Part shown: positions 6,192-29,431 of the stretch, piece by piece
Position numbering within the stretch: position 1 is the stretch's first letter
Layout of the letters: each line of letters opens with the position of its first letter
The notes under the pieces: model-generated
Told to the model about the DNA's origin: nothing
The model's input: only the letters and a program-made list of their open reading frames with translations
Database searches by the model: none
Translations under genes and position numbers: made by a program
DNA from: an uncultured Myxococcales bacterium
GTDB lineage: Bacteria; Myxococcota_A; Polyangia; Palsa-1104; JAEUJZ01
Direction of reading: 5' to 3'
Assembly: GCA_937859535.1 (NCBI GenBank)
Contig: CALLYL010000911.1
Span: forward strand, 1 to 33,073
DNA length: 33,073 bases

Positions 6192-6539
6192 ATGCAGATG
6201 ATGCGAACGTTTCTGTGGCTTCTGTGCGGGGTGGTTTGCGTCACCATGGGCTGTAGCACGCCAGCACAGCCGGAGTCGTACGCAGTAGGAACCAGGCTTG
6301 GCGGCGGCTCGCTGTTATTCGGCGCAGATTCATGCACGTACACCGCTGCGCCTTCCGTTCCGTGTGCATCGTTGCCCATGGGCGCCCATGGGCAGTTCCT
6401 TGGCCACTCCACGCTTCCTCATCACAGACAACCTGGCAAGAGACTTGCACTGGCAGGGCGAGTCCGTTCAGATTTCCGCCACGAAAGGCATTCCCGATGC
6501 AGACCTCGCCCCGCGAAACGGTTACCTTCAAGGAACTAG
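6192..6539 (+). CDS. Candidate small lipoprotein or lipoprotein remnant
   Basis: From ATG 6192 (GAAAGG just upstream; further ATGs at 6198 and 6201) the frame begins with a convincing lipoprotein signal: MMRTFLWLLCGVVCV followed by lipobox TMGC. About 35 plausible residues come next. The remaining half then runs through the palindromic repeats at 6373-6394 and the sigma-54 element at 6434-6449, and overlaps the start of the CHAT gene at 6497 in another frame, where the translation becomes Arg/His-rich and unlike coding sequence. I think this is either the 5' fragment of a decayed lipoprotein gene later overwritten by control sequence, or a real short lipoprotein with a junk tail. A chance ORF remains possible. 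Confidence 0.35.
   Translation: MQMMRTFLWLLCGVVCVTMGCSTPAQPESYAVGTRLGGGSLLFGADSCTYTAAPSVPCASLPMGAHGQFLGHSTLPHHRQPGKRLALAGRVRSDFRHERHSRCRPRPAKRLPSRN
6373..6394. promoter_or_regulatory. Double palindromic enhancer-like site (two GCCCATGGGC, 10 bp apart)
   Basis: Two perfect GCCCATGGGC decamers at 6374-6383 and 6384-6393 abut head to tail, and with one flanking base on each side the 22 bp form a single perfect palindrome. The 10-bp period puts both sites on the same helix face. The centre lies about 64 bp upstream of the -12 element of the sigma-54 promoter at 6434-6449, a usual distance for an activator site. Confidence 0.75.
6434..6449 (+). promoter_or_regulatory. Sigma-54 promoter of the CHAT / FHA-activator / kinase unit
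   Basis: TGGCAAGAGACTTGCA matches the -24/-12 consensus TGGCACGNNNNTTGCW at all but one fixed base, with GG and GC exactly 10 bases apart. A transcript starting about 12 bases downstream would have a leader of roughly 35-40 bases before the ATG at 6497, with AAAGG in place. Confidence 0.8.
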
Positions 6540-8442: not shown

Positions 8443-9825
8443 ATGAGCGACACAGAGCAGATCGTCCAAGACGAAACCGAGGAAGAAGAGCCGCTGCGTG
8501 CCGAGCTACGATTGGTCTTTGTGGGCCCGAACAAGATCCAAGAGGCACCGCCGTATCGCCTTGCGGATCAGAAGAAGCTCACGATTGGTCGCAAGGACAG
8601 CAGTGATATCTGGCTACAGGATGCCACTGCATCGGAACAACATGCGAGCATCTGGCCGACGCTGACATCGCAAGGCTGGCAGGTCGAACTACGAGACAGT
8701 GCCAGCAGCAACGGAACCACTGTCAACGGTCAGAAGATCAAGTCTATCCATCTGCAAGACGGCGATGTGATTCGCATCGGGAGTTCCTTTCTGATCTATC
8801 GCGTTCACCGCATTCCCAACGAAGATGCAAAGATTCCCGAGCTGATCGGTTGCTCGCCGCCGATTCGACTGCTGCGCAAGCAGATCGAGGTGTTCGCACC
8901 GACTTCGGCTGTGATTTTGCTTCAGGGCGAAAGCGGTGTCGGCAAGGAAGTCGCCGCACAAGCGATTCACACCTTGAGCAAGCGGCGCGGTCCGCTGGTG
9001 CCAATCAACTGCGCCACGATCGAGAAATCACTCGCAGACAGCACTCTGTTTGGACACGTCAAGGGGGCCTTCACTGGCGCAGTCGATGATCACGTAGGAC
9101 TCTTCCAGCGCTCGGCCCAAGGAACCCTGTTTCTCGATGAAGTGGGTGAGCTAGAGAAGCCTGTGCAGTCGAAGTTTCTCCGTGCCGTGGATACGCTGAG
9201 GTTTGTGCGCCTCGGATCCTCTACCGAAGTCAAAACCGATGCGCGGGTTCTTGCGGCAACCAAGGTCGATCTCCAGCAAGCCGTGCATCAGGATCGCTTC
9301 CGCGATGACCTGTTCTATCGACTGTCGGGCGTGCGATTGCACATTCCGCCTTTGCGGGAACGAAAGGAAGACATCCTGCTGCTCGTGCAGCACTTTATCC
9401 AAAGGAAAAGCCCGGCAATGGTCATCACCACTGCGTTGGCAGAGGCACTGCTGGACTACTCGTTCCCAGGCAACATCCGCGAGCTGAAGAGCTTGATCGA
9501 CAAAGGGCTCGCTGTCGCTGCTAGCCGGAATTCGGGTGAGATCAAGCTCTCCTATTGTCGAGATCAGCTCGAAGAGAAAGACACCTCACTGCGCGGAGTT
9601 CGCGATACGTCCATGCTTCACGACGTGGTGCCAAAGCCCGCAGAAGATCGTGCAGCAGAACCGGTTCGAGGTCGTCCCACCCGCGAAGAGCTAGGGTCGA
9701 TTCTGACACGCTGCGATTGGAAGATTCTGAGAGTATCCAAGCTCACGCAGTGGGATCGTCATACGATTCGACGCTGGATGAAGTATTACGAGCTGACGCC
9801 GCCGAGCCCCACATCTGCCCCTTGA
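8443..9825 (+). CDS. FHA-domain sigma-54 activator (enhancer-binding protein 1)
   Basis: A 460-residue transcription activator in which the usual receiver is replaced by a phosphothreonine-binding FHA domain (about 22-122; Gly49-Arg50, Ser64-x2-His67, Asn90-Gly91). The AAA+ domain (about 135-375) has Walker A GESGVGKE (162-169), an intact GAFTGA loop (208-213), Walker B LFLDEVGE and RDDLFYRLSGV. The C-terminal helix-turn-helix (about 425-450) contains WDRHTIRRWMKYY. In FHA activators the trigger is expected to be Ser/Thr phosphorylation rather than a histidine kinase, and the next gene, 39 bp downstream, is a Ser/Thr kinase. The gene lies in a unit driven by a sigma-54 promoter with palindromic upstream sites, so it may activate its own operon. 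The start is supported by AAGGAG upstream. Confidence 0.93.
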   Translation: MSDTEQIVQDETEEEEPLRAELRLVFVGPNKIQEAPPYRLADQKKLTIGRKDSSDIWLQDATASEQHASIWPTLTSQGWQVELRDSASSNGTTVNGQKIKSIHLQDGDVIRIGSSFLIYRVHRIPNEDAKIPELIGCSPPIRLLRKQIEVFAPTSAVILLQGESGVGKEVAAQAIHTLSKRRGPLVPINCATIEKSLADSTLFGHVKGAFTGAVDDHVGLFQRSAQGTLFLDEVGELEKPVQSKFLRAVDTLRFVRLGSSTEVKTDARVLAATKVDLQQAVHQDRFRDDLFYRLSGVRLHIPPLRERKEDILLLVQHFIQRKSPAMVITTALAEALLDYSFPGNIRELKSLIDKGLAVAASRNSGEIKLSYCRDQLEEKDTSLRGVRDTSMLHDVVPKPAEDRAAEPVRGRPTREELGSILTRCDWKILRVSKLTQWDRHTIRRWMKYYELTPPSPTSAP

Positions 9826-9864: not shown

Positions 9865-11829
9865 ATGAGCAAGACCAAGCCACCTGACGACGAGAAAGAG
9901 GACGAGGCGGATGGTCATTCCTCCACCGATGGGAAGTCCGTTTCGGCAAACGACAAGAAATCGGATGATGCGCTGGACGAGGATGATGGCCCTGGACGGG
10001 CGGGCCAACAGGTCGACAAGTACCGTTTGGAGCGCCGGCTTGGGGCTGGCGGAATGGCGGAAGTCTATGTCGCGGTCCGCACCGATCATATTCAAAATCG
10101 CGTCGCGCTGAAGCTGTTGCACTCTTACTTCGCGAGTCGCCAGGATTACCGTCGTCGCTTCGAGCAAGAAGCACTCATCTTGTCTACGCTCAACCATCCT
10201 GGAATCGTCAAGATCGTAGACTACGGTGTATTGCCAAGCGGAGAGTCCTTTTTGGCAATGGAATACCTCGAAGGAACGTCACTGGCCGAGCGGCTGGCTC
10301 AAAGTCCGGGTCATCGACTTCCCATCGATGCCGCAGTACACCTCGGTTATCAGGTCGCTTGCGCGTTGGCCAGCGCGCATACGCGGGGCGTGGTTCATCG
10401 CGATCTCAAACCCAGCAACCTGATGATCGTTCCCGACTCTGCGGCGTGGGCGGGGGAGCGTGTCAAAATTGTCGATTTTGGCATCGCTCGGACCATCGAA
10501 GCGAGTGGTGAAGCGCTGACCGAGGTCGGCAAGATCATCGGCACCATGCGCTACATGTCACCGGAGCAGTTGCGCGGTGAAAAGGTGGATGGCTCTACCG
10601 ATGTCTTTGCGCTCGGTCTGGTCCTGTTTGAAATGATTGCCGGTCGGCCCGCGTTCACTGGCAATGGCTCGGTCCTCAAAGATCAAATCTTGCGGGAAGA
10701 GGCACCCAATCTGCGCACGGTGCAACACGAAGTGCCAAGACCGCTGAGCGATCTGGTGCGGCGCATGCTTGCCAAGGTGGCGACCGACCGACCGACCATG
10801 ACCCAGCTTGAGCAGGAGTTGTCGCAACTGTCGCTGACTGGTTCACGTAGCGCGATTCGCACCGTCAGTCCATCGCGTCTCTTTCCGCTTTCCCGCACGA
10901 CGCGCACGGTGATCGCCGTCCTCCTTGGATGCGTCGTGTCCGTTGGGATTGGCGTGGCGGTAGTTCGATCACTGAAGCGGCCCGTTGAGCCTGCGACCTC
11001 CGTGGCCATCCCGGAGGCGGTCGTCCATTCAGCGAAGCCGCCCGTTGTGTCGGCGACCACCGTCCGTATCCCAGAGGGCGACATGCTGATGGGGAGCACT
11101 CCGGAGCAAGTGCAGGACGCTTATAGCCGCTGCCGGATCGAAATGAAGGACGCTCCAAAATGGTGTCGCCCAGACATGTTTGAGAACGAACAGCCCCAGC
11201 GCGCGGTTCACATCAGAGCCTTCCAAATGGATCGCTCCATCGCGAATACCGCAGACTTTGTGCGATTCCTTCACAGCGTTCGATCGCGACTACAGATTCG
11301 CCCAGATAGTCAGAGTGGCAAGCCGCGCTTTGTCGAACTGGAGGGTCAGATCCTGTACGACCTCCACAGTGTACGGGCAACGATTGTTTACAATGCTGAA
11401 AAATGGGAGTTCTCCGCTCTCCAGCGCACCGAGGAGCAGCCGGTCGAACAGGCGACCTGGTTTGGCGCTGAGCAGTATTGCCGGTCGAACGGCAAGCGTC
11501 TCATTACCGAAGTGGAGTGGGAGTACGTCGCCAAGCTGCTTGAGACCCCAGAAGGACGAGCCAAGCTACCGGGGCGGATTGATCTTCCGGCCGACATTCA
11601 GGAATGGGTTTGGGATGAGTACAAAGCCCTCTATCCGGATTGCCATCGGTGCACAAATCCGGTTGTAGGCAAGCCGCCCGATCAACGCAAAACAGAAGAC
11701 GCCAGCGTCGTCCGGGGCTGTGACCGCGCCCTAGAACCAGCCGTATGTTGCCGGAGTGCGGCGCGAACCAAGCGAGAGAATTCCGCTGCCGCAACCAAGC
11801 TCGGCTTCCGTTGCGTCAGCGATGGATGA
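9865..11829 (+). CDS. Ser/Thr protein kinase fused to an FGE-sulfatase-like extracytoplasmic domain
   Basis: A 654-residue membrane kinase. An acidic, disordered leader (1-50) precedes a complete Hanks-type kinase domain (about 53-320): glycine loop GAGGMAEVY, Lys83, HRDLKPSN (178-185), DFG at 204-206 and MSPEQ. One transmembrane helix lies at about 349-367. The outer part (about 400-654) is a formylglycine-generating-enzyme/SUMF1-like fold, seen in VRIPEGDMLMGS, TEVEWEYVAK, IQEWVWDEY and the terminal KLGFRCVSDG. In kinase fusions this domain is usually taken as a ligand sensor; its catalytic competence is unclear. It is last in the unit CHAT - FHA activator - kinase and is the natural candidate to phosphorylate the FHA ligand. 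A second fusion of the same type lies at 25073-27064. Confidence 0.93.
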   Translation: MSKTKPPDDEKEDEADGHSSTDGKSVSANDKKSDDALDEDDGPGRAGQQVDKYRLERRLGAGGMAEVYVAVRTDHIQNRVALKLLHSYFASRQDYRRRFEQEALILSTLNHPGIVKIVDYGVLPSGESFLAMEYLEGTSLAERLAQSPGHRLPIDAAVHLGYQVACALASAHTRGVVHRDLKPSNLMIVPDSAAWAGERVKIVDFGIARTIEASGEALTEVGKIIGTMRYMSPEQLRGEKVDGSTDVFALGLVLFEMIAGRPAFTGNGSVLKDQILREEAPNLRTVQHEVPRPLSDLVRRMLAKVATDRPTMTQLEQELSQLSLTGSRSAIRTVSPSRLFPLSRTTRTVIAVLLGCVVSVGIGVAVVRSLKRPVEPATSVAIPEAVVHSAKPPVVSATTVRIPEGDMLMGSTPEQVQDAYSRCRIEMKDAPKWCRPDMFENEQPQRAVHIRAFQMDRSIANTADFVRFLHSVRSRLQIRPDSQSGKPRFVELEGQILYDLHSVRATIVYNAEKWEFSALQRTEEQPVEQATWFGAEQYCRSNGKRLITEVEWEYVAKLLETPEGRAKLPGRIDLPADIQEWVWDEYKALYPDCHRCTNPVVGKPPDQRKTEDASVVRGCDRALEPAVCCRSAARTKRENSAAATKLGFRCVSDG

Positions 11830-11879: not shown

Positions 11880-12089
11880 CTAGCCACGGACCACGCCACT
11901 TGGTGGCGCTTCCTCTGTGTCTCCGCCACGAACAACACCGCTGGGCGGAGCCTCATCACCACCTGAGTGGAGCAGGGTGCGGCCCGTCTTGTCGCCACCA
12001 CGCTGCACGGGGCTCGGGGGCGGTTCCGGAATCGCTCGGCTCAGGTTGCGGGACGGAAGGGACGGGCTGTTCTGGGTCTGATTGTGCAT
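11880..12089 (-). CDS. Small Pro/Glu-rich protein with repeated EAPPSGVVRGG-type units
   Basis: A 69-residue protein. The start is very well supported: AGGAGGTG lies 5 bases before ATG 12089, and a near-perfect sigma-54 promoter lies just upstream on the same strand. After a Gln/Asn/Ser-rich N-terminus it has three related proline units: EPPPSPVQRGG, DEAPPSGVVRGG and EEAPPSGVVRG, the last at the C-terminus. There is no signal peptide, membrane helix or cysteine. The protein at 27096-27359 shows the same design (EEPPP... KRGG twice, ending in KRGG), and both sit directly after a kinase-FGE fusion gene. It may be a kinase substrate, a scaffold, a peptidase substrate or a peptide precursor; the sequence does not decide. 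It is convergent with the kinase gene. Confidence 0.75.
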   Translation of the reverse strand: MHNQTQNSPSLPSRNLSRAIPEPPPSPVQRGGDKTGRTLLHSGGDEAPPSGVVRGGDTEEAPPSGVVRG

Positions 12090-12116: not shown

Positions 12117-12132
12117 TGCAATCGTTGTGCCA
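12117..12132 (-). promoter_or_regulatory. Sigma-54 promoter of the small repeat protein
   Basis: The minus strand reads TGGCACAACGATTGCA, matching TGGCAC...TTGCA with exact GG-N10-GC spacing. The expected start site lies about 12 bases further along, just upstream of the Shine-Dalgarno at 12095-12102, leaving a short leader before ATG 12089. Confidence 0.82.
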
Positions 12133-12222: not shown

Positions 12223-12275
12223 GCTCATGGGCCGGCAAGGATGGCCCATGGGCAAACGGGTCTAGGCCCATGGGC
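12223..12275. promoter_or_regulatory. Cluster of three palindromic enhancer-like sites spaced 21-22 bp
   Basis: GCTCATGGGC (12223-12232, one base off) is followed by perfect GCCCATGGGC at 12244-12253 and 12266-12275. Start-to-start distances are 21 and 22 bp, about two helical turns, so all three would face the same side. The cluster is about 110-160 bp from the minus-strand sigma-54 promoter and about 260-310 bp from the plus-strand one, so it could serve both. Confidence 0.72.
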
Positions 12276-12340
12276 GTCAGCCGCTTCCCTTCCTTTACCG
12301 ACAGTTGTTCGCGCCGTTCTGCAAGTGCTGCACCCAAAAG

Positions 12341-12373
12341 CTGCCTTCCTTTTCATTTTCAATTGAAAGGCAG
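12341..12373. repeat. AT-rich inverted repeat between the enhancer-like clusters
   Basis: CTGCCTT (12341-12347) pairs with AAGGCAG (12367-12373), and a perfect 12-bp palindrome TTTCAATTGAAA sits inside at 12357-12368. It is an AT-rich island in GC-rich DNA and lies between activator sites and promoter, where DNA-bending proteins often act. I could not match an IHF consensus. Confidence 0.5.
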
Positions 12374-12376
12374 GCG

Positions 12377-12397
12377 CGCCATGGGTGCCCATGGGCA
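12377..12397. promoter_or_regulatory. Paired palindromic enhancer-like site
   Basis: A perfect GCCCATGGGC at 12387-12396 (with flanks TGCCCATGGGCA) is preceded 10 bp earlier by the imperfect copy CGCCATGGGT. This is the same 10-bp head-to-tail pairing seen at 6374/6384 and 24452/24462. It is about 150 bp upstream of the -12 element at 12543. Confidence 0.7.
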
Positions 12398-12529: not shown

Positions 12530-12545
12530 TGGCACATCGGTTGCT
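12530..12545 (+). promoter_or_regulatory. Sigma-54 promoter of the lipoprotein / pseudokinase / thioredoxin-like unit
   Basis: TGGCACATCGGTTGCT is an excellent -24/-12 match (TGGCAC and TTGCT, GG-N10-GC). It lies about 45 bases upstream of the TTG start at 12590, which has AAAGGAG at 12577-12583. Confidence 0.82.
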
Positions 12546-17115: not shown

Positions 17116-17125
17116 GCCCATGGGC
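17116..17125. promoter_or_regulatory. Palindromic enhancer-like site GCCCATGGGC
   Basis: A perfect copy in the 124-bp gap between the thioredoxin-like gene and the FHA-kinase gene. Its centre is about 61 bp upstream of the -12 element of the sigma-54 promoter at 17168-17183. A small inverted repeat CTGCT-CA-AGCAG follows at 17127-17138. Confidence 0.72.
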
Positions 17126-17167: not shown

Positions 17168-17183
17168 TGGACTGCAACTTGCT
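17168..17183 (+). promoter_or_regulatory. Sigma-54 promoter directly before the FHA-kinase start codon
   Basis: TGGACTGCAACTTGCT has GG-N10-GC and CTTGCT. The -12 element is only 13 bases before ATG 17196, so the transcript would start at or next to the AUG, giving an essentially leaderless message. The GGGGGA at 17185-17190 would then lie upstream of the transcript. Confidence 0.68.
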
Positions 17184-19985: not shown

Positions 19986-20034
19986 ACGCAGGGTGGCCCA
20001 GTGAACTCCCAACAGAGTGAGCCAAGAGAGTGAC

Positions 20035-21954
20035 ATGGACAACGTAAAAGCTCTGCCCGTGATGAATGCCAATCTGGCGATCCGCTTCGAGTCCAACATT
20101 ACCTACGAATTGGAACAGGCGCAGGATCCCCACCAGGGATACATTGTGCCGAATCTCCTTGGACAGGGACGTTTTGCCAAGGTCTTTGGTGCCTGGCAGC
20201 GCAGTTCGGATCGCAACGTGCGTCGCGTTGCCATCAAGATTCTGCACGAGCATGTCGACTTGCGAGCAGAGGAACTCTCCCTTCAGGAAATCAAGCTGCT
20301 GAAGGATTTAAGTGCCACGGGCAATGAGAGCGTGATCTCTACCGTCGATATCATTCGGCTCGGACCGAGCGTGATGTGTGGCGGCTGTGGAAAACTCTAC
20401 CATCCACTGTGCCCGTCGTGCGGAAACGGCAAGTTGATTCGACATCAGCTTCGCAATCACGCCTATCCTGCGCTCAAATGTGAAAGTGAGCGTTGTAGCT
20501 TTACGCTGTCTGCGGAGCACATTGCTACACGCTACACCGAACTGCTGCGCGCTCCATCGAAGACCTGCTGCGCCAAGGGTCCGCATGCGCAACACGGAAC
20601 ACTGGTCAACTTCGTAGATCGTGAAGCCGTGGTGATGGAACTGCTCAACACCAAGCTCACCCAGTTTCACAGCCAGCGCAAGCGGGTCTTTGCTCGGTTG
20701 TGTGAACGGCACGGTCTGGTCGACCCCAGGATGTCATCGTTCCAGCCGGCGGTCTCGATTACGCCTGGCGACTCTCGTTCTGATCCAAAGGCCAGCAATC
20801 CACAACTCGACCTACTGCACCGCGTGGTACTTCTTGAAAAGATACGGGTGATCTGTCAGCTCTCGGAAGCAATTGCCTGGCTGCACGGTGAGAAGGGAAT
20901 TGTTCACAAAGACCTCGCTCCTGACAACATCATGGTGTCCTCACGTACCGCAGAAATCGACGAACATAAGGTCGGAGAGGAGGCCCATCATGAGCCGCTG
21001 ATGGATTCCCTGAACAACTATGCCACCCAGACGTCGTTTACGACCAAGGTGATCGATTTTGGCTTGGCAGATCAACATCAACTTTCGCGCAACTGGTACG
21101 AGGAACCGGCATCGTTTCTGTTTGCGGCGAATGAGAAGCTTCCGTATCTGTCCAGCGAGTCGCGCAATCGCAAGATCAAGCTCAACCAGCGGATCGAATT
21201 TGAGCCCAATGGATCGCGATTCCGCGTTCCGGATAACCTAATTCCGTCGAAAGCCGGCGAGCTGGCAATGATGAAGGGAGATATCCTTGCCGACGAACGC
21301 GATCCCCATCATCACTACTATGTGATGGTGCAGGAAATCATGGAAGAACCTGTGGGCAGCGGACAGTTCTGGGCCAAGTTCGAAGACAGCCCACCACCGC
21401 ACGCACATACCCGTCAGTATGATCTGACCCGGCCACTTGGGGAAGCGCACGACATCTATGCGCTCGGCGCGATTTTCTATTTCATCCTGACCGGCGAACA
21501 TACCGAGGTCGAGAAAATCGGCCACCTCGCTGGATCGCTTCAGTACACCCCCCAGCGACTCGATGCGCAATCGTTGCTGGTGAGTCAACCTCTTTACAAG
21601 ATTTGTCGCGACAGAATGCCCGAACCATTCTACCGCGATGAGCTCTTGATCCTCATTCTGCGGACCATGGTGCGTGGGCTCGACGATTCTTTTGTGAGCA
21701 GCCGGATCGAGCGCGGGCCCGAACCCTCCAAACGACTCCTTCAAGAAGCACGGCGGATCTATAATCAACTGCTCGCCGATATCCTGTCGGACCCGGTCTT
21801 GACCAGAGAGCGCGAGACAAGGAACCAGCTCGTTCAGCTACAGGACGTGCTTCGCCGCTCCAGTGACTACCAGCGCATCGCCTGGGGCGTTATCTGCGCG
21901 GGGATTCCCTTCTCTGCGGCAGCGGGCTGGATCCTCTCTCACTTCGGTCACTGA
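20035..21954 (+). CDS. Ser/Thr kinase with a zinc-ribbon-like insertion and a C-terminal membrane tail
   Basis: A 639-residue kinase of unusual build. The N-lobe has GQGRFAKVFGAW (43-54) and VAIKIL (Lys68). A cysteine-rich insertion of about 80 residues sits between N-lobe strands: CGGCGKLYHPLCPSCG (Cys115, 118, 126, 129) plus Cys149 and Cys154, most likely a zinc ribbon. The hinge VVMELL (199-204) is followed by a second insertion. The catalytic loop is HKDLAPDN (291-298), with Lys for Arg of HRD and Ala for the catalytic Lys of DLKP; VIDFG is at 339-343. A long activation/C-lobe region holds further insertions. The last 23 residues are hydrophobic, so the protein is probably tail-anchored with its kinase in the cytoplasm. 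ATG 20035 is chosen; GTG 20017 is possible. It follows the FHA-kinase gene by 49 bp. Confidence 0.85.
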   Translation: MDNVKALPVMNANLAIRFESNITYELEQAQDPHQGYIVPNLLGQGRFAKVFGAWQRSSDRNVRRVAIKILHEHVDLRAEELSLQEIKLLKDLSATGNESVISTVDIIRLGPSVMCGGCGKLYHPLCPSCGNGKLIRHQLRNHAYPALKCESERCSFTLSAEHIATRYTELLRAPSKTCCAKGPHAQHGTLVNFVDREAVVMELLNTKLTQFHSQRKRVFARLCERHGLVDPRMSSFQPAVSITPGDSRSDPKASNPQLDLLHRVVLLEKIRVICQLSEAIAWLHGEKGIVHKDLAPDNIMVSSRTAEIDEHKVGEEAHHEPLMDSLNNYATQTSFTTKVIDFGLADQHQLSRNWYEEPASFLFAANEKLPYLSSESRNRKIKLNQRIEFEPNGSRFRVPDNLIPSKAGELAMMKGDILADERDPHHHYYVMVQEIMEEPVGSGQFWAKFEDSPPPHAHTRQYDLTRPLGEAHDIYALGAIFYFILTGEHTEVEKIGHLAGSLQYTPQRLDAQSLLVSQPLYKICRDRMPEPFYRDELLILILRTMVRGLDDSFVSSRIERGPEPSKRLLQEARRIYNQLLADILSDPVLTRERETRNQLVQLQDVLRRSSDYQRIAWGVICAGIPFSAAAGWILSHFGH

Positions 21955-22014
21955 TCTGTTTGTCAACTTCCCTATCTGTTTGTCAACCTCCCTATCTGTT
22001 TCGCAAGCTCTCTA
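21955..22014 (+). repeat. Three tandem 20-bp repeats just after the kinase stop codon
   Basis: Units TCTGTTTGTCAACTTCCCTA (21955-21974), one mismatch at 21975-21994, and a more diverged copy TCTGTTTCGCAAGCTCTCTA (21995-22014) run head to tail from the base after the TGA. The near-integral two-turn period fits repeated protein-binding sites. They lie upstream of a palindromic site and a sigma-54 promoter. Confidence 0.8.
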
Positions 22015-22067: not shown

Positions 22068-22077
22068 GCCCATGGGC
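22068..22077. promoter_or_regulatory. Palindromic enhancer-like site GCCCATGGGC
   Basis: A perfect copy in the gap after the Zn-ribbon kinase gene, about 114 bp upstream of the -12 element at 22186. Confidence 0.72.
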
Positions 22078-22172: not shown

Positions 22173-22188
22173 TGGCGCAGCACTTGCA
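22173..22188 (+). promoter_or_regulatory. Sigma-54 promoter of the exported Pro-rich protein gene
   Basis: TGGCGCAGCACTTGCA: GG-N10-GC, with TGGC and TTGCA intact. The expected start site is near 22199, giving a leader of about 25 bases to GTG 22223 or about 78 to ATG 22277. Confidence 0.8.
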
Positions 22189-22276
22189 ATGACCCCTCTC
22201 TAAAAGGCGAACAGAGGCTCAGGTGACCGAGTGGTCTCTTGGGTGGTTCGCTTCTATGTGCAATGGGGGGATCTAC

Positions 22277-22933
22277 ATGTTTCGCCGCTTTCATCTGTTT
22301 GACGCGTCAGGAATGCACCGTGCGGGCGCGTTTTGGGCTGTGCTGATGGGGGTATCGTTCTGTACTGGCTCGCTCGATGCGAAGCCGCACCGCAGGCTGA
22401 CTTCGTTCCCAACCGGTAGTGCTTACAAAAAGGTGAGCGCAGCCCGGGGACGCTCAAAGCTGCATCTGCGACGCTTCGTCAAAACAGCGGACCCACAGTC
22501 ATCCACAGCCGCACCAAATGTCGCGACAGCTTCACCACCTTCACCACCTCCGCCACCTGCTGACAGTCTGCAAGATTCCGTGCTGAGCAGACAGCTCCAG
22601 CAGCACGCGATGGGTCATGGTGGATCCGGTGACGCGGTGGGAACGCCAATGACGGGCTTCGCCCAGGAAGCAGAAGGACACGCTTCCTCTGTACGTCTGC
22701 GAGCGGGAGAATGCTACCTGGTCGTCGCGATTGGTGAGTCATCGATGCGCTCTTTGACCACTTCGCTGTGGAGCCCGTTTGCCGAACGTCAAATCACCAT
22801 CATTGGGCAACAAGCGCCATGGACCGCAATACGTGCCCGCTTTAGCGGCGAACACAAGCTGATTGTGCGTCCGGCCGGTGGTCCTGGGCAGTACGCTGCT
22901 GGTCTGTACCCCTATCCATGTCCGGCAGAGTAA
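22277..22933 (+). CDS. Exported protein with Pro-rich linker and beta-rich C-terminal domain
   Basis: About 218 residues from ATG 22277, which has GGGGGG 6 bases upstream and gives a signal-peptide-like N-terminus (AGAFWAVLMGVSFCTGSLDA). An upstream GTG at 22223 (AGAGG in front) would add 18 residues and is also possible. After basic residues comes a Ser/Pro linker with a run of prolines, then a C-terminal domain of about 75 residues (GECYLVVAIGESSMRSLTTS, ERQITIIGQQAPWTAIRARF, GQYAAGLYPYP). This resembles a beta-sandwich module common at the ends of myxobacterial periplasmic proteins. I cannot name a function. It stands alone in its unit and is convergent with the second FHA activator gene. 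Its own sigma-54 promoter and palindrome tie it to the cluster. Confidence 0.72.
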   Translation: MFRRFHLFDASGMHRAGAFWAVLMGVSFCTGSLDAKPHRRLTSFPTGSAYKKVSAARGRSKLHLRRFVKTADPQSSTAAPNVATASPPSPPPPPADSLQDSVLSRQLQQHAMGHGGSGDAVGTPMTGFAQEAEGHASSVRLRAGECYLVVAIGESSMRSLTTSLWSPFAERQITIIGQQAPWTAIRARFSGEHKLIVRPAGGPGQYAAGLYPYPCPAE

Positions 22934-22982: not shown

Positions 22983-24392
22983 CTAGGGAGAACTGGCCGC
23001 AGAGTTCGGGCCCGGCAGATGACGGTAGGAATCTGCGGAGAGTTTGTGTAGCGCCAGGTAGCGTCGAACCGAGCGGCGATCGCAGCCCAGGATCTGCGCG
23101 ACCCGCGAGATGTTCCCCTGGTGCGTAGTCATGTGGTTGTGAAGCTGTTCCTTCGATGGGACGACATGCGGACGCGACTCACTGCTGGCGGGCCGTTCGG
23201 AGGAAGAGGACTTCGACTTTGCCACATCGCGCATCATCGCCTCCTCCTCTGCGTCAAAGTCCATGTCAGTCTCTAGCTGCTTGAGGAGCTGAATGACGTT
23301 GGCCGTGGACCGATCGATCCGAAGTTGCTGCGAGACGTTGAATAGCTGTCGGACGTTGAGCGGCCAGTCATGCCGCAACAGCACATGCACGAAGTCCGCA
23401 TCCAGAAGATTCGCAGCCTCTGGATAGAAATGGAGTAGCAGAGGAACGATGTCTTCTCGGCGGTCCCGTAGCGGAGGAATGTGGATTTGAAACTGCGCGA
23501 TGCGACCAAACAGTTCCTTCCGAAACGTACCGTTTGGGCTGTCATTCCAGAGCGCCTGGTTCGTCGCAGCGATCAAGCGAAAATCGCAAGCGACCGGAGA
23601 ATCGGAGCCGAGCGGTGTCACTTCTCGCTCAGATAGCACGCGAAACAGTCTGGGCTGGAGGCTCACGGCCATGTCGCCGATCTCATCCAAAAAGAGGGAT
23701 CCAGCATCGGCGGCCCGGAAGCATCCCTTGCGCGCAGCAGCACCGGTAAAGGCGGACTTGGTGTTTCCGAAAAACTCAGACTCGGCGAGCGTTTCAGGCA
23801 CAGCGGCACAGTTTACGGCCACAAACGGTCCGTCTTTCCGCTTGCTCAGTGCATGGATCGCACGTGCTACCACTTCCTTGCCTGTTCCTGTTTCGCCGAG
23901 TAGCAGGATGCTGACGGAATCTTGTGACGCAGCGCGAACAATTTTCGCCCGAAGATCCTTCATTACAAGGGAAATGCCCACAAGACTCTTGATGTCGGCA
24001 TCATCGGGTTTGACTGGTTCGTAACGCACCATCGCCAGCGTGTCTCCGATTCGGATCACATCGCCGTCTTCCACCCGGTGAGGGTGCTCATTTTTGTGAA
24101 GATGGGTTTCACGGACAGTCGTACCGTTCTTGCTGTGATCCCGCAGGAAAACGATCCCATCTGTTTCGCTTACCTTGATGCTGGCGTGCGATTTCGATAG
24201 CCCACTGTCGTGTGGGATCGAGATCATTTGGTCCCCCTCCGCACGACCGATCTCTGTTGTCCCCTTAAGCAACGAGAAGATCGTGCGTCCCCGATACGAA
24301 GGCGAGTAGAGGATGCGAAGCTGCGGAGCACCACGTCGCGAACTCTTTTGCTGTCCGCTTTTGGGCAGCGTTTTGGTCTCTGTGTCCTTCAT
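22983..24392 (-). CDS. FHA-domain sigma-54 activator (enhancer-binding protein 2), SAFTGA variant
   Basis: A 469-residue protein built like the activator at 8443. The FHA domain (about 24-126) has Gly49-Arg50, Ser66-x2-His69 and Asn89-Gly90. The AAA+ domain (about 135-380) has Walker A GETGTGKE (166-173) and Walker B LFLDEIGD (233-240). The sigma-54 contact loop reads SAFTGA (213-218) instead of GAFTGA, and the arginine-finger segment reads [11 protein letters not shown]. After a Ser-rich linker the C-terminal helix-turn-helix ([20 protein letters not shown]) has a recognition helix like that of the first activator (WDRHTIRRW). It is divergent from the 24572 unit across a 179-bp region with a double palindromic site. 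I found no good sigma-54 element for this gene itself, so it may be made constitutively. The Gly-to-Ser change could weaken or tune activation. Confidence 0.92.
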
Positions 24393-24451
24393 AAAGCCAG
24401 TATCGCCAACGTGCTAAGGCCGAAACAAGTGGGCACTTCGGCCTGTCTGCT

Positions 24452-24471
24452 GCCCATGGGTGCCCATGGGC
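24452..24471. promoter_or_regulatory. Double palindromic enhancer-like site between divergent units
   Basis: GCCCATGGGT (24452-24461) and perfect GCCCATGGGC (24462-24471) are tandem with a 10-bp period, as at 6374/6384. The pair lies about 84 bp upstream of the -12 element at 24545, and about 60-80 bp from the start of the divergent activator gene, where a bound protein could also repress. Confidence 0.74.
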
Positions 24472-24531: not shown

Positions 24532-24547
24532 TGGCATAAGGCGTGCA
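24532..24547 (+). promoter_or_regulatory. Sigma-54 promoter of the membrane protein / kinase-FGE / repeat-peptide unit
   Basis: TGGCATAAGGCGTGCA: TGGCA and TGCA in place with GG-N10-GC; one T of TTGC is G. The expected start site is near 24558, about 14 bases before ATG 24572, with AAGAAGGA between. Confidence 0.7.
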
Positions 24548-24571: not shown

Positions 24572-25063
24572 ATGCCGATGCCAGTGCCAACCCCAAGTCT
24601 ACCCAGCTTGCCAACACCGCGATTGATTGGAGCGATGATTGTGTTTTGGGTGGTGTTCATCTCGTGGGTGGGTGGGCCATCGCGTACCGCCGAACCAATC
24701 GAGCGATGGCGATGGCTTTTGGCGGGTCGTCCCATGCTTCATGTGCGGCTTGGCGAACATGCTCCCAACCCTAAGATTAGAAAGTACGAAGTGAGCGTTC
24801 GTTTTCCCGATAACGAACCGGTGCTGATGGAGTTTGGTACAAGTGACCCGCTCATCGGTGCCCTTCCGATGGCAGTTCCCGCTGGGCTTCTTGAGGGCGC
24901 ACGCCAGGTCGAGGTGCAAATTGCTGGTCTCGACGACAAGGGATGTATTCTCGAAGGGGGTGAGCAGCACATCGGAAGGAGCGCTCAATCGCCGTTCGCT
25001 GCCGCGGAGCCGGTGATTCAAGTGAACATGAAGACACTTCCCCGCGCTCTGTGCGTGCTATAG
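24572..25063 (+). CDS. Single-pass membrane protein of unknown function
   Basis: A 163-residue protein from ATG 24572 (AAGAAGGA 5 bases upstream). A Pro-rich N-terminus (MPMPVPTPSLPSLPTP) precedes one membrane helix (about 18-36). The outer part (about 45-163) is predicted beta-rich: HVRLGEHAPNPKIRKYEVSV, EPVLMEFGTSDPL and ARQVEVQIAGLDD. There are two cysteines only. I recognise no family. It is followed after 9 bp by the kinase-FGE gene, so the two are almost certainly made together, and its outer domain may work with the kinase's FGE-like sensor. Confidence 0.75.
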   Translation: MPMPVPTPSLPSLPTPRLIGAMIVFWVVFISWVGGPSRTAEPIERWRWLLAGRPMLHVRLGEHAPNPKIRKYEVSVRFPDNEPVLMEFGTSDPLIGALPMAVPAGLLEGARQVEVQIAGLDDKGCILEGGEQHIGRSAQSPFAAAEPVIQVNMKTLPRALCVL

Positions 25064-25072
25064 AAAGACCCT

Positions 25073-27064
25073 ATGGAAGTATCGTCGAAGTCCGCCGAAA
25101 TGACAGACGCTACTGCTCATCTTGCGCAGGATCCGCGTGTAGGCGTCATGGTTGGGAACTACCGACTGGTTCGCCGCATCGGCGAAGGCGGAATGGGAAC
25201 CGTCTACGAAGCTGTTCATCGCGAAAACGAAAATCGAATTGCGGTGAAGTTCCTCCGCCCAGATGCGGATGTGGACCCAGACAGCGAGGCCATTCGTCGC
25301 AAGCGATTCCACGATGAGGCCAGCGCGCTCGCTGAGGCCCGACACCCAAACCTCGTAACCTTCTTTGATGCGGGGGATCTTCCTGATGGCCAGCTCTACA
25401 TCATGATGGAGCTTGTGGATGGCACGACCTTGCGAGAGTTCGTCTCACAGCAAGGCGGAAGGCTGTCGGTCCCACTGGCCAGTGGGTTGATACGGCAGAC
25501 CGCGTCAGCGCTTGCGTACATTCACAGCCGGGGCATCGTCCACCGTGATCTGAATCTGCGTAACTTGATGGTCGTGAAAGACGAGGCCGTGCGGGAAGGC
25601 TGGCGGATCAAGATATTAGACTTTGGAATTGCCAAATTCCTCAATCATCAAGAACAAAGAACGCTCAGTCAGTCCCAGCTCGGCACGGTTCGCTATATGT
25701 CTCCAGAGCAGTGCGAGTCGGCCAAATCCGTCGATGCAAGCACCGACATCTATTCGCTGGGGTTGATTCTGTTTGAGCTGTTGACTGGTCAACCACCGTA
25801 TCAAGTCGCGGAAGATAGCGCCGCCAAATGGATTGACGCACACATCAACAGGCCACCCAGATCACTCAAAAAGTTATGGACGGATGCACCGTCCCAGCTC
25901 GCCAAACTGGTGGCCGAGATGCTCGACAAACATCCGGACTTTCGACCCAAAGCCGATGAGATTGTGGCTCACCTCGAATCGGGTATCAAGCTGCCGGGTC
26001 GACGAGGATTTTTCGGACCAGACCAGACCCTGGCTTTTTTGCTGGCCAGTGTGCTGATTCCCAATGCGGGTGCCGTGAGCTATGAGCTGCTATCGCGATA
26101 CCGAAAGCCCATGGATGAGCTCAGCGCGGCGCAGCTTGCGGTGCTGGCGAGAAATGCACCGGACGGCACGGTTTTGATTCCTCCCACCTCTCTGTTCATG
26201 GGTTCCTATCCTGAGGAACTGGCGGCTGCCCAGAAGGACTGCGAACAACGAAACACCAGAGACCAATGCGACCCTACGCTGATCCAGCGAGAAGCCCAAC
26301 CGCAGTTGGTATCGGCGGGCGCTTTTTACCTCGACAAGACAGAGGTTACCAACGAGCTGTTTCTGCGTACCCTACTCAGCATGCAGGAAGCCGTCGACCT
26401 TCGACCGGTGAACGGAAAGCCGCCGCGCCAGATTCGCCTGATTGAAGTCGATGGGAAACGGACCTTGATGTTTGATCTGTGGCACGATCAAGGGAAGGGC
26501 AGCGGTCTCGAATTGGTGGATGGCCAGCTACGCGTTCGACCCGGATTTGAGTCGCTGCCAATGGTTCAGGTCACGCACATGGCTGCGCAGCGGATCTGTG
26601 AGAAACGGGGAGGCACACTTCCCTCGGAAATTCAGTGGGAGGCGGCAGCACGTGGACGCGAACGACGCGAATATCCTTGGGGGGCCAAGCTTCCGGACTG
26701 CGCTGGGGTGGTCTTTGATCGCGGATCCGGGGGATTATGCAACGGGTTTCCGCCGCAGCCAGTGGCAGTCGGAACAGCAGCTCAGGATCTGACCCCAGAG
26801 GGCGTGTATGACCTGGGTGGCAATGTGATGGAGTGGGTGCGAGATTCGTTTATGAATCCATTTCCGCGCTGTGGCGGGTGCAAAGGATTCTTTGCAGAGG
26901 TGGCCCCCATCGCCATCTCTCCAACCACCGGCTATTCGATCAAAGGGGGGAGCTACGTCATGAGCCGCGAGGTGGCACGGGGAGCAAGTCGCTCGACGGC
27001 AGTGGCGCAACAAATGACACCGAACCTCGGGTTCCGATGTGCATTCCCAGTCGCATCGAAATAG
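25073..27064 (+). CDS. Ser/Thr protein kinase fused to an FGE-sulfatase-like domain (second copy)
   Basis: A 663-residue protein. The kinase domain (about 29-310) has GEGGMGTVYEA, Lys59, HRDLNLRN (157-164; the usual catalytic-loop Lys is Asn), DFG at 183-185 and MSPEQ. A hydrophobic stretch at about 322-343 is probably the membrane helix. The C-terminal part (about 365-663) is an FGE/SUMF1-like domain, clearer than in the first fusion: FYLDKTEVTNELFL, PSEIQWEAAARGRERREYPW, YDLGGNVMEWVRDS, KGGSY and NLGFRC. It shares architecture with 9865-11829 and, like it, is followed by a small Pro/Glu-rich repeat protein gene (31 bp downstream, same strand). The Lys-to-Asn change in the catalytic loop could reduce activity. 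Confidence 0.92.
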   Translation: MEVSSKSAEMTDATAHLAQDPRVGVMVGNYRLVRRIGEGGMGTVYEAVHRENENRIAVKFLRPDADVDPDSEAIRRKRFHDEASALAEARHPNLVTFFDAGDLPDGQLYIMMELVDGTTLREFVSQQGGRLSVPLASGLIRQTASALAYIHSRGIVHRDLNLRNLMVVKDEAVREGWRIKILDFGIAKFLNHQEQRTLSQSQLGTVRYMSPEQCESAKSVDASTDIYSLGLILFELLTGQPPYQVAEDSAAKWIDAHINRPPRSLKKLWTDAPSQLAKLVAEMLDKHPDFRPKADEIVAHLESGIKLPGRRGFFGPDQTLAFLLASVLIPNAGAVSYELLSRYRKPMDELSAAQLAVLARNAPDGTVLIPPTSLFMGSYPEELAAAQKDCEQRNTRDQCDPTLIQREAQPQLVSAGAFYLDKTEVTNELFLRTLLSMQEAVDLRPVNGKPPRQIRLIEVDGKRTLMFDLWHDQGKGSGLELVDGQLRVRPGFESLPMVQVTHMAAQRICEKRGGTLPSEIQWEAAARGRERREYPWGAKLPDCAGVVFDRGSGGLCNGFPPQPVAVGTAAQDLTPEGVYDLGGNVMEWVRDSFMNPFPRCGGCKGFFAEVAPIAISPTTGYSIKGGSYVMSREVARGASRSTAVAQQMTPNLGFRCAFPVASK

Positions 27065-27095
27065 AGGATGAATCAACGGAGCACGGAGATTTCCT

Positions 27096-27359
27096 TTGCT
27101 GAACAAAAAGCGTTACACACCAGAACCCACCCGCGATGAACCGATCGGTCGTGATCACGTTCCTCCCAACTTCTCGACCCGTGGAGAGGAGGGCGAGAGC
27201 AACGACTCTCCGAGCGAATCAGACAGTGAGGAGCCGCCACCGCCACCGCCGACCCCAACTCCCATAGTGGGAACCAAGCGCGGGGGTGTTGCTGAATCGA
27301 TCGATGACGAAGAGCCACCTCCTCCGCGAGAGATCACCGGTCCCAAGCGCGGCGGCTAG
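27096..27359 (+). CDS. Small Pro/Glu-rich protein with two EEPPP...KRGG units
   Basis: An 87-residue protein from TTG 27096 (GGAG 7 bases upstream). The N-terminal half is charged and Ser/Glu-rich. The C-terminal half has two related units: SEEPPPPPPTPTPIVGTKRGG split by VAESID from DEEPPPPREITGPKRGG, the last residues of the protein. There is no signal peptide, membrane helix or cysteine. The design matches the 69-residue protein at 11880-12089: acidic residues, prolines, a short aliphatic spacer, basic residue, Gly-Gly. Both genes neighbour kinase-FGE genes. Composition suggests a disordered protein. The conserved unit, with RGG or KRGG endings, may be a docking, phosphorylation or cleavage motif. 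Low complexity means the frame deserves checking, but the motif conservation between two loci argues that it is real. Confidence 0.68.
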   Translation: MLNKKRYTPEPTRDEPIGRDHVPPNFSTRGEEGESNDSPSESDSEEPPPPPPTPTPIVGTKRGGVAESIDDEEPPPPREITGPKRGG

Positions 27360-27496: not shown

Positions 27497-27506
27497 GCCC
27501 ATGGGC
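27497..27506. promoter_or_regulatory. Palindromic enhancer-like site GCCCATGGGC
   Basis: A perfect copy, about 126 bp upstream of the -12 position of the degenerate promoter at 27614-27629 and about 165 bp before the next start codon. Confidence 0.7.
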
Positions 27507-27613: not shown

Positions 27614-27629
27614 TGGCACAGGACTTGGA
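27614..27629 (+). promoter_or_regulatory. Degenerate sigma-54 promoter (GG instead of GC at -12)
   Basis: TGGCACAGGACTTGGA matches the consensus except that the invariant -12 GC reads GG. Its location, about 43 bases before ATG 27671 with AAGGAG at 27656-27661, fits the other units. GCCCATGGCA (27609-27618), an imperfect palindrome, overlaps the -24 element. It may be weak, inactivated, or altered on purpose. Confidence 0.45.
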
Positions 27630-27670: not shown

Positions 27671-28351
27671 ATGATGAGTTCGTTTCCCTCGATCGCTCCA
27701 ACATCCAATGTGCGCCGTGACCGCTCGGAGAGCGAGCGAGCGACACTGAGTCTGGATTGCAGCAAGCTTGCAGAGCAGTGTCGTCGCGAACATGAAGAGG
27801 AAAAGGACGAAGATACTTCGAGTCCGGTTCCGACGCCGGTTGTCAACGAGCCAACGACCCAGCCCTACCCAAGTGAGATCTACGTTCGGATGATGATGCA
27901 GGCCACCCAGAGCAGTCCGCCGCCAAGGCCCGCCGCCCAGCCGCTCCCACCGAGGCCGCTGAGCCTTCCTGGTGTTCGAGGCTCGCGCAGCAGCAAGCTA
28001 GAGGCAGTTCTGGTGCTGCTTGGCGCAGTGGGACTGCCAGCCGCCACCATTGGCAGTCTCCAGGCCATTGGGAATCCTACGCAGTCGTCCGTGATCGTCG
28101 GGAAGGAGCACAACACCGTGCCAGATGTGGTGAGCCACCAAAACCGCTCGTTGATTCCGCGTATTCGCGAGGAGCCGGAAGCGTTGACAGAGAAAGGCCC
28201 AGTACGTGGCCTACCAAATGAGACACCACCGTCTGTCTCTAAGCCGGCGACAGATGTTGGCACCATGAGCACACGCAGCGCCCAGCCCAAGAGTCGGCCT
28301 CGCATCACGCCAGCCAAGCCGCACCTGCCGACGATCGAGATCGAAGATTAG
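27671..28351 (+). CDS. Pro-rich single-pass membrane protein of unknown function
   Basis: A 226-residue protein with AAGGAG upstream of ATG 27671. The N-terminal 105 residues are polar: an acidic segment (HEEEKDEDTSS), then Pro-rich stretches (PPPRPAAQPLPPRPLSLPG). One hydrophobic helix lies at about 110-133 (KLEAVLVLLGAVGLPAATIG). The outer or C-terminal 90 residues are Pro/Arg/Thr-rich and end in IEIED. It has the shape of an anti-sigma-like or scaffold membrane protein with disordered tails on both sides, but no domain is recognisable. It is followed after 72 bp by the CHAT-EAD gene and probably shares its transcript. Confidence 0.68.
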   Translation: MMSSFPSIAPTSNVRRDRSESERATLSLDCSKLAEQCRREHEEEKDEDTSSPVPTPVVNEPTTQPYPSEIYVRMMMQATQSSPPPRPAAQPLPPRPLSLPGVRGSRSSKLEAVLVLLGAVGLPAATIGSLQAIGNPTQSSVIVGKEHNTVPDVVSHQNRSLIPRIREEPEALTEKGPVRGLPNETPPSVSKPATDVGTMSTRSAQPKSRPRITPAKPHLPTIEIED

Positions 28352-28423
28352 ATCGGCTGACACGCGAAAGGGAGGATGCACGGAACTCCAGATTTGGTAT
28401 CTTCGCTCCCACCAGAGTGTCCC

Positions 28424-29287
28424 ATGGACGACAATCAGATCCGCATCCTCTTTCTGTCGGCAAATCCGCGCAAAGACAAGCCGCTCGATCTCCAAGGCGA
28501 GTATAGTGAGATCGACACTGCGATCAGCGAAACCAAGCTGGGTGAACAGATCCAGCTCTATCCGCGATGGAAGGTCAGCAATGAACAGTTGCTGGATCAC
28601 TTTCTTCGCTATCAGCCTCACATCATCCACTTCAGTGGACATGGAACCGATGGCAGTCTCATTCTCGATGACGGTGAGGGCCACGAATGGCAGCTCGATC
28701 GAGCAACGGCCCGCGCTGCCTTTAAGACGACGGCAGGGAAGACGCGCTTGGTTGTACTCAACGCCTGTCTGTCCGCCGATGTTGCCCAGGTCTTATCAGA
28801 GGTGATCGACTGTGTGATCGGCATGTCGCAAGAGATGTTTGATGACACCTCGATCGTGTTTTCAGGAGCACTGTACCGAGGATTGAGCGAAGGTCTCAGC
28901 ATCCGCCAGTCCTTCGATCGGGCACGTACGCAGATCAATCTGGCAGGCAAGGTTGGCTCGCGAACGCCCATCATCTTGACGAAGCCTGGGATGGACGCAC
29001 GCCGCATGTATCTGAGCGATTGGGTTGGGCCCACAGGTGGGAGTTCTGGGCCTCCGCTGCCAAGCGAGCTGCGGAACACTCCGGCTGACCGCCCGTCGGT
29101 GCGTGCCCGCATTCAGGTACAGCTACGGCTAGACGCGGACTTCGATGGGTTCGTGTTAGACCATTTTCCGGATGTACACCGGCGATTCGCGGGCGGAATG
29201 GATCGCACCCAGAAGACCAATCTCCTGTTGACGCTGAAGGAGCCTGCCGAGATCCTCGCAGCCCTTCATCGCATACCGTCCCAGTAG
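28424..29287 (+). CDS. CHAT-domain peptidase with a C-terminal effector-associated-type (EAD-like) domain
   Basis: A 287-residue protein. The CHAT domain fills residues about 4-190: QIRILFLSANPRKDKPLDLQ at the start, catalytic His73 in PHIIHFSGHGTDG and Cys115 in RLVVLNACLSADV. A short Ser/Gly/Pro linker leads to about 55 residues (VQLRLDADFDGFVLDHFPDV, HRRFAGGMDRTQKTNLLLTL) that resemble small helical effector-associated adaptor domains found at the ends of CHAT, TIR and NTPase conflict proteins. Such adaptors pair like with like, bringing peptidase and regulator together. ATG 28424 is chosen because it begins right at the domain; an in-frame ATG at 28376 abuts GGGAGG with no spacer and would add 16 residues. 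The protein is far smaller than the CHAT protein at 6497 and has the CHAT domain first instead of last. Confidence 0.88.
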   Translation: MDDNQIRILFLSANPRKDKPLDLQGEYSEIDTAISETKLGEQIQLYPRWKVSNEQLLDHFLRYQPHIIHFSGHGTDGSLILDDGEGHEWQLDRATARAAFKTTAGKTRLVVLNACLSADVAQVLSEVIDCVIGMSQEMFDDTSIVFSGALYRGLSEGLSIRQSFDRARTQINLAGKVGSRTPIILTKPGMDARRMYLSDWVGPTGGSSGPPLPSELRNTPADRPSVRARIQVQLRLDADFDGFVLDHFPDVHRRFAGGMDRTQKTNLLLTLKEPAEILAALHRIPSQ

Positions 29288-29355: not shown

Positions 29356-29365
29356 GCCCATGGGC
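29356..29365. promoter_or_regulatory. Palindromic enhancer-like site GCCCATGGGC
   Basis: A perfect copy in the gap after the CHAT-EAD gene, about 69 bp upstream of the -12 element at 29429. Confidence 0.73.
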
Positions 29366-29415: not shown

Positions 29416-29431
29416 TGGTCCTGTTTTTGCT
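29416..29431 (+). promoter_or_regulatory. Sigma-54 promoter of the kinase-PEGA gene
   Basis: TGGTCCTGTTTTTGCT: GG-N10-GC with TTTGCT. The expected start site is near 29442, shortly before the Shine-Dalgarno GGAGGAG and ATG 29459. Confidence 0.77.

Follow-up and report, generated by a model that had tools for sequence, protein, structure and literature searches.

A short palindrome as the putative enhancer site of a sigma54 regulon confined to one locus of a Myxococcales genome

We analyzed a whole contig of 33,073 nucleotides (the window) from an uncultured Myxococcales bacterium. The 10-bp palindrome GCCCATGGGC, which recurs in the window, is proposed to be the upstream activating site (UAS, or enhancer) of a sigma54 regulon that is limited to one locus and comprises Ser/Thr kinases and CHAT (caspase-like) proteins, with the locally encoded activator bEBP2 as its most likely reader. 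We give this reading a probability of roughly 0.8. The protein bound, the cooperativity, the input through FHA domain and kinases, and the feedback are the parts of it that we infer from sequence. The two activator genes and two small open reading frames of the locus are as follows.

8443 to 9825, plus strand: bEBP1, second FHA-type sigma54 activator (Pfam FHA and Sigma54_activat), inside the operon of cluster A
22983 to 24392, minus strand: bEBP2, FHA-type sigma54 activator (Pfam FHA, Sigma54_activat and a weak Fis-type HTH), divergent from the operon at 24578
11880 to 12089, minus strand: small ORF of 69 aa, downstream of the cluster B promoter, with proline/RGG repeats, related to 27099-27359
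27099 to 27359, plus strand: small proline/RGG ORF, related to 11880-12089, with a counterpart in the sister species G002

The draft genome (7.4 Mb in 948 contigs) contains 21 perfect copies of GCCCATGGGC, and 10 of these were found in the window. Since the reversed control word occurs only 8 times genome-wide, the palindrome is concentrated at this locus. Three imperfect decamers were detected at 12223 (9/10), 24452 (9/10) and 12377 (7/10), and each of them completes a pair or triple that had been named in the earlier note. Thus, the window carries 13 decamer sites, which we grouped into eight clusters.

Cluster A, 6374 to 6393: two abutting perfect decamers, 10-bp period
Cluster B, 12223 to 12275: triple of GCTCATGGGC (9/10), GCCCATGGGC and GCCCATGGGC, spacings 21 and 22 bp
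Cluster C, 12377 to 12396: CGCCATGGGT (7/10) and GCCCATGGGC, 10-bp period
Cluster D, 17116 to 17125: single decamer
Cluster E, 22068 to 22077: single decamer
Cluster F, 24452 to 24471: GCCCATGGGT and GCCCATGGGC, 10-bp period, between the divergent bEBP2 gene and its putative target operon; decamer kept in G002
Cluster G, 27497 to 27506: single decamer, kept at the orthologous promoter of G002
Cluster H, 29356 to 29365: single decamer

All 13 sites are intergenic (0/13 within genes of the window), and intergenic DNA makes up just 9.9% of the gene cluster. Of the eight gaps exceeding 100 bp, seven carry decamers and the eighth lies outside the module. The count of CCCATGGG was 11, against 0.63 expected from shuffles. 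Copies of GCCCATGGGC elsewhere in the same genome lacked a partner in register, and for most of them there was no good promoter either. Furthermore, comparable repeated palindromes were absent at 20 other loci of paralogous activators or kinases in this genome and in relatives.

The surroundings of the clusters were searched for sigma54-like -24/-12 promoters with the consensus TGGCACG-N4-TTGCW, scored out of 23. A match of at least 19/23 was detected at all eight clusters, 41-134 bp away (cluster edge to -24), oriented away from the cluster and facing a gene start. These distances agree with the roughly 50-200 bp at which inverted-repeat UAS lie upstream of sigma54 promoters.

Promoter A, 6434 to 6449, plus strand: TGGCAAGAGACTTGCA, 22/23, 41 bp from cluster A, leader about 38 nt; operon of CHAT (6497), FHA-bEBP1 (8443) and kinase-FGE (9865)
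Promoter B, 12117 to 12132, minus strand: TGGCACAACGATTGCA, 22/23, 91 bp from cluster B, followed by AGGAGG and the ATG of the 69-aa ORF
Promoter C, 12530 to 12545, plus strand: TGGCACATCGGTTGCT, 22/23; operon from TTG 12590
Promoter D, 17168 to 17183, plus strand: TGGACTGCAACTTGCT, 19/23; FHA-kinase (17196) and kinase (20017)
Promoter E, 22173 to 22188, plus strand: TGGCGCAGCACTTGCA, 21/23; gene 22223-22933
Promoter F, 24532 to 24547, plus strand: TGGCATAAGGCGTGCA, 20/23; operon 24578-27359 (161-aa protein, kinase-FGE, small ORF); G002 counterpart TGGCACAGACTCTGCT
Promoter G, 27614 to 27629, plus strand: TGGCACAGGACTTGGA, 19/23, unusual TTGG at -12; genes 27671-29287 (unknown protein, CHAT)
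Promoter H, 29416 to 29431, plus strand: TGGTCCTGTTTTTGCT, 19/23; kinase from about 29459

A random position has such a promoter in 8% of cases per strand, and none of 20,000 random placements did as well as the observed sites (p < 5e-5). Likewise, none of 200 permuted consensuses did as well. The promoters at G and H are weak matches to the consensus. Taken together, the eight promoters account for all operons from 6.4 to 30.9 kb. Seven are on the plus strand, with predicted leaders of 3-38 nt to the gene start, and the cluster B promoter is on the minus strand. At promoter D the start codon is about 3 nt from the predicted TSS, which would give an almost leaderless mRNA. The rpoN gene was found in the genome.

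To the arrangement upstream of promoters is added the comparison with G002. The bEBP2 ortholog of this species has 69% identity, keeps the recognition helix CDRRS-[VI]-RRYLALH and lies next to the same decamer. The divergent operon also keeps its order (small unknown protein, kinase-FGE, Pro/RGG ORF, unknown protein, CHAT, kinase). A perfect decamer was detected at both the F and the G positions, although the flanking DNA has diverged. G002 has TGGCACAGACTCTGCT as the -24/-12 element of F and TGGCATGCTGCTTGGA as that of G; CTTGGAATGG is common to the G promoters of G002 and the window. The F position of G002 carries a single full decamer, followed at exactly 10 bp by a TGGGC half-site (GCCCATGGGC-ACAGG-TGGGC). 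Among the words of at least 8 letters common to both orthologous promoter regions, most belong to the decamer core, to the -12 region of G, to a ribosome-binding site or to ACAAGTGGGCACTT, a second element; a few are isolated 8-mers. This conservation evidence comprises two promoters and the single ortholog found. The earlier note had taken the palindromes for activator sites. Their position upstream of sigma54-like promoters at 8/8 clusters, and the two sites kept with their promoters beside the ortholog of the local FHA-type activator, bear this out, so that a putative activator function of the decamers is well supported by sequence.

The earlier note had further claimed that the palindromes are paired with helical phasing. 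Its positions and spacings are exact: 10 bp at 6374/6384, 12377/12387 and 24452/24462, and 21 and 22 bp at 12223/12244/12266. A genome-wide histogram of distances, obtained by pattern search, showed that the spacing distribution is not flat. The genome has 18 CCATGG pairs whose centres lie 10-40 bp from each other. Three of them have the 10-bp spacing, all in the window; the distances of the 14 pairs outside the window were scattered over 11-39 bp. With random placement of sites in their own intergenic gaps, three or more spacings of 10 bp have p = 1.5e-5. All five close spacings deviated by no more than 0.1 turn from whole turns (28% expected), and the phase of neighbour spacings gave a Rayleigh p = 0.003 at 10.5 bp, for n = 5 spacings of which three are identical. 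The 10-bp composite is not a widespread motif: it was found in 12 of 318 genomes of the class, and three at one locus occur only in the present genome.

Pairing holds for clusters A, B, C and F. However, D (17116), E (22068), G (27497) and H (29356) have no in-register partner, and since these are four of the eight clusters, pairing is not general. The spacings of 10, 10, 10, 21 and 22 bp are whole turns, but 12266 to 12377 is 111 bp (10.6 turns), so that not all distances between neighbours are whole turns. The phase between decamer and promoter was not significant in the window (p ~0.3-0.4) or with the sister species added (p = 0.2-0.8). Thus, helical phasing is real but not the rule, with five spacings (10 bp three times) as its basis. 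The note's reading of cooperative activator binding on one helix face is supported in part: the palindromes have the behaviour of activator sites and the spacing is not flat, whereas cooperativity and a need for phasing are conjectural. Against such a need are the single decamer at half of the promoters, the unphased distance from site to promoter and the incomplete 24452/24462 double in G002. Cooperative phasing is therefore a plausible reading with few examples behind it.

The 10-bp spacing may instead have arisen when the decamer was duplicated in tandem, without selection for helical phase, and a single decamer would then be enough. We consider this possible, though we lean against it. Duplication would fit the doubles, which abut without a gap, the four promoters with a single decamer and the imperfection of the F double in G002. 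However, the linkers within the triple (11 and 12 bp) are unrelated, and yet its spacings are 21 and 22 bp. The flanks of the three doubles are also unrelated, and the TGGGC half-site of G002 is kept exactly in the 10-bp register. In a rather doubtful proposal of our own, the abutting 20-bp double would be a composite enhancer, at which two FHA-bEBP2 dimers at one-turn spacing (a dimer of dimers) nucleate the active oligomer. This geometry would be tighter than that of known NtrC-type UAS, and together with the single and two-turn sites it would allow a self-contained kinase/CHAT regulon to be expressed at graded levels.

The decamers might also be read by bEBP1, or by mixed oligomers of bEBP1 and bEBP2, rather than by bEBP2 alone. 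The sigma54-contact loop is an intact GAFTGA in bEBP1, against SAFTGA in bEBP2 (TAFTGA in the G002 ortholog), and the bEBP1 gene is in the operon behind the double site A. In G002, however, the decamers adjoin the bEBP2 ortholog, and the best match to bEBP1 has 42% identity and is on another contig. Moreover, G002 shows no match to the CHAT gene of the bEBP1 operon (the one behind cluster A), so that bEBP2 is the better candidate, and we regard a reading by bEBP1 as unlikely. The loop of bEBP2 is changed from GAFTGA and its remaining AAA+ motifs look intact; the SAFTGA loop may alter its contact with sigma54.

A short perfect palindrome is typical of operators, and a LysR gene (32096) and an NtrC-like response regulator (1584) lie in the window. 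The decamer could then be the operator of a repressor, or of a non-sigma54 regulator that merely shares these promoters. The sites are, however, 41-134 bp upstream of the -24/-12 elements and not over them, and the conserved neighbour is an FHA-bEBP, which makes this quite improbable. A genome-wide iterated palindrome or restriction/methylation site is hardly credible: GCCCATGGGC does exceed its reversed control in many relatives, but such a word would need an even spread over the genome, which the local clustering contradicts for the window copies, with about half of the genome copies in a 33-kb contig and 13/13 window copies intergenic. A highly iterated (HIP-like) palindrome was rejected on the same count, 10 of 21 copies lying in this contig with no genome-wide spread.

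With bEBP2 as the reader, the regulon would most likely work as follows. bEBP2 would bind the decamers as dimers and oligomerise through its AAA+ domain. By looping, the oligomer would reach the RNA polymerase-sigma54 at the -24/-12 element, over a distance of 41-134 bp, and would open the promoter. All operons between 6.4 and 30.9 kb would be switched on in this way, and with them the CHAT proteins, the Ser/Thr kinases, the second FHA-bEBP and the small Pro/RGG proteins. The 10-bp doubles and the 21/22-bp triple would raise the local density of activator on one helix face at four of the eight promoters. FHA domains recognize phosphothreonine. The FHA domain of bEBP2 might couple activation to threonine phosphorylation by the co-regulated kinases, and the resulting positive feedback would make a self-reinforcing switch. 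Classical NtrC-type sites are about 16-17 bp, and the shorter length of the 10-bp palindrome speaks against this reading.

Several known systems resemble this arrangement in part. Nla28 of Myxococcus xanthus is an autoregulatory sigma54 activator of the NtrC type and a response regulator. It uses tandem 8-bp near-palindromes, CT[C/G]CG[C/G]AG, upstream of TGGCACG-N4-TTGC(T/A); these elements are degenerate and spaced 3-67 bp, and two are needed where tested (PMC9765219). The present locus likewise has tandem short palindromic elements upstream of sigma54 promoters. Unlike those of Nla28, its decamer is near-invariant, the putative activator is of the FHA type and the regulon is one locus. CbrB of Pseudomonas putida, a monomer in solution, recognizes three non-palindromic subsites upstream of sigma54 promoters, 20-25 bp apart centre to centre on one helix face, and its authors suggest that spacing is possibly more important than sequence (PMC6296734). 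The in-phase sites upstream of sigma54 promoters are shared with CbrB, whereas the decamer is palindromic. The 12223/12244/12266 triple resembles the triple UAS of NorR, in which three adjacent sites gather three dimers (described in PMC6296734). In contrast to NorR, the sensory domain is unrelated and a triple is present at only one of the eight promoters. Tandem palindromes help hexamerisation (PMC6296734). FHA-domain enhancer-binding proteins of Myxococcus xanthus are attributed to Jelsbak et al. 2005 where that work is cited in PMC12288465; like these, bEBP1 and bEBP2 are sigma54 activators with FHA and AAA+ domains.

The in-phase tandem UAS is thus of an already known kind (CbrB, NorR). 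New features are the decamer, which is unusually short as a site, its assignment to an activator of the FHA type, the restriction of the regulon to one locus and the 10-bp doubles that abut. In the literature searched, GCCCATGGGC was not found as a regulatory site (of 38 papers containing the string, the ten judged by title appear unrelated), nor was a site of FHA-type activators comparable to the decamer. Almost no DNA sites are assigned to FHA-type activators in that literature, and the locus gives an explicit candidate pair of activator and site. Per genome, the relatives searched have some 24 to 168 candidate stretches with a relationship to this activator. The locus offers a complete local regulon; its promoters, all of one system, have putative enhancers with one site, two sites (one turn) or three sites (two turns), and this natural series makes the part played by helical phasing directly testable. 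CHAT and small Pro/RGG proteins are also tied here to one proposed phosphorylation-linked switch.

No Pfam family was found for the two Pro/RGG ORFs of the window. These ORFs and their G002 counterpart (L129, about 15.5-16.2 kb) consist of repeated proline-rich segments ending in an (I/V)xGxxRG(G)-like motif, for example PPSGVVRG and PPPPREITGPKRGG, each directly before the stop. The small proteins could be substrates of the CHAT or kinase proteins of the cluster. Among 96 relatives, none has an ortholog of the CHAT gene at 6497 (best 28-32% identity), and the kinase at 20017 has relatives of only 37-47% identity. A defence system, suggested by PADLOC matches, was rejected because the matches reflect generic kinase/AAA+ similarity. 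Ser/Thr kinases fused to FGE-sulfatase (formylglycine-generating-enzyme-like) domains are encoded at 9865-11829 and 25073-27064.

The following element was identified between cluster F and bEBP2.

24427 to 24438: second conserved element AAGTGGGCACTT, a near-palindrome, identical in the G002 ortholog promoter

In G002 the same AAGTGGGCACTT was detected between the F decamer and bEBP2 and again beside the second decamer (G002:C22 136889 and 133629), and it is perhaps the site of another regulator. The TTGG for TTGC at -12 of promoter G was observed in both species, within the shared CTTGGAATGG (27614-27629; G002:C22 133547). Finally, a 20-bp tandem repeat, ATCTGTTTGTCAACCTCCCT, is present in 2.4 copies at 21954-22001, directly after a kinase gene.
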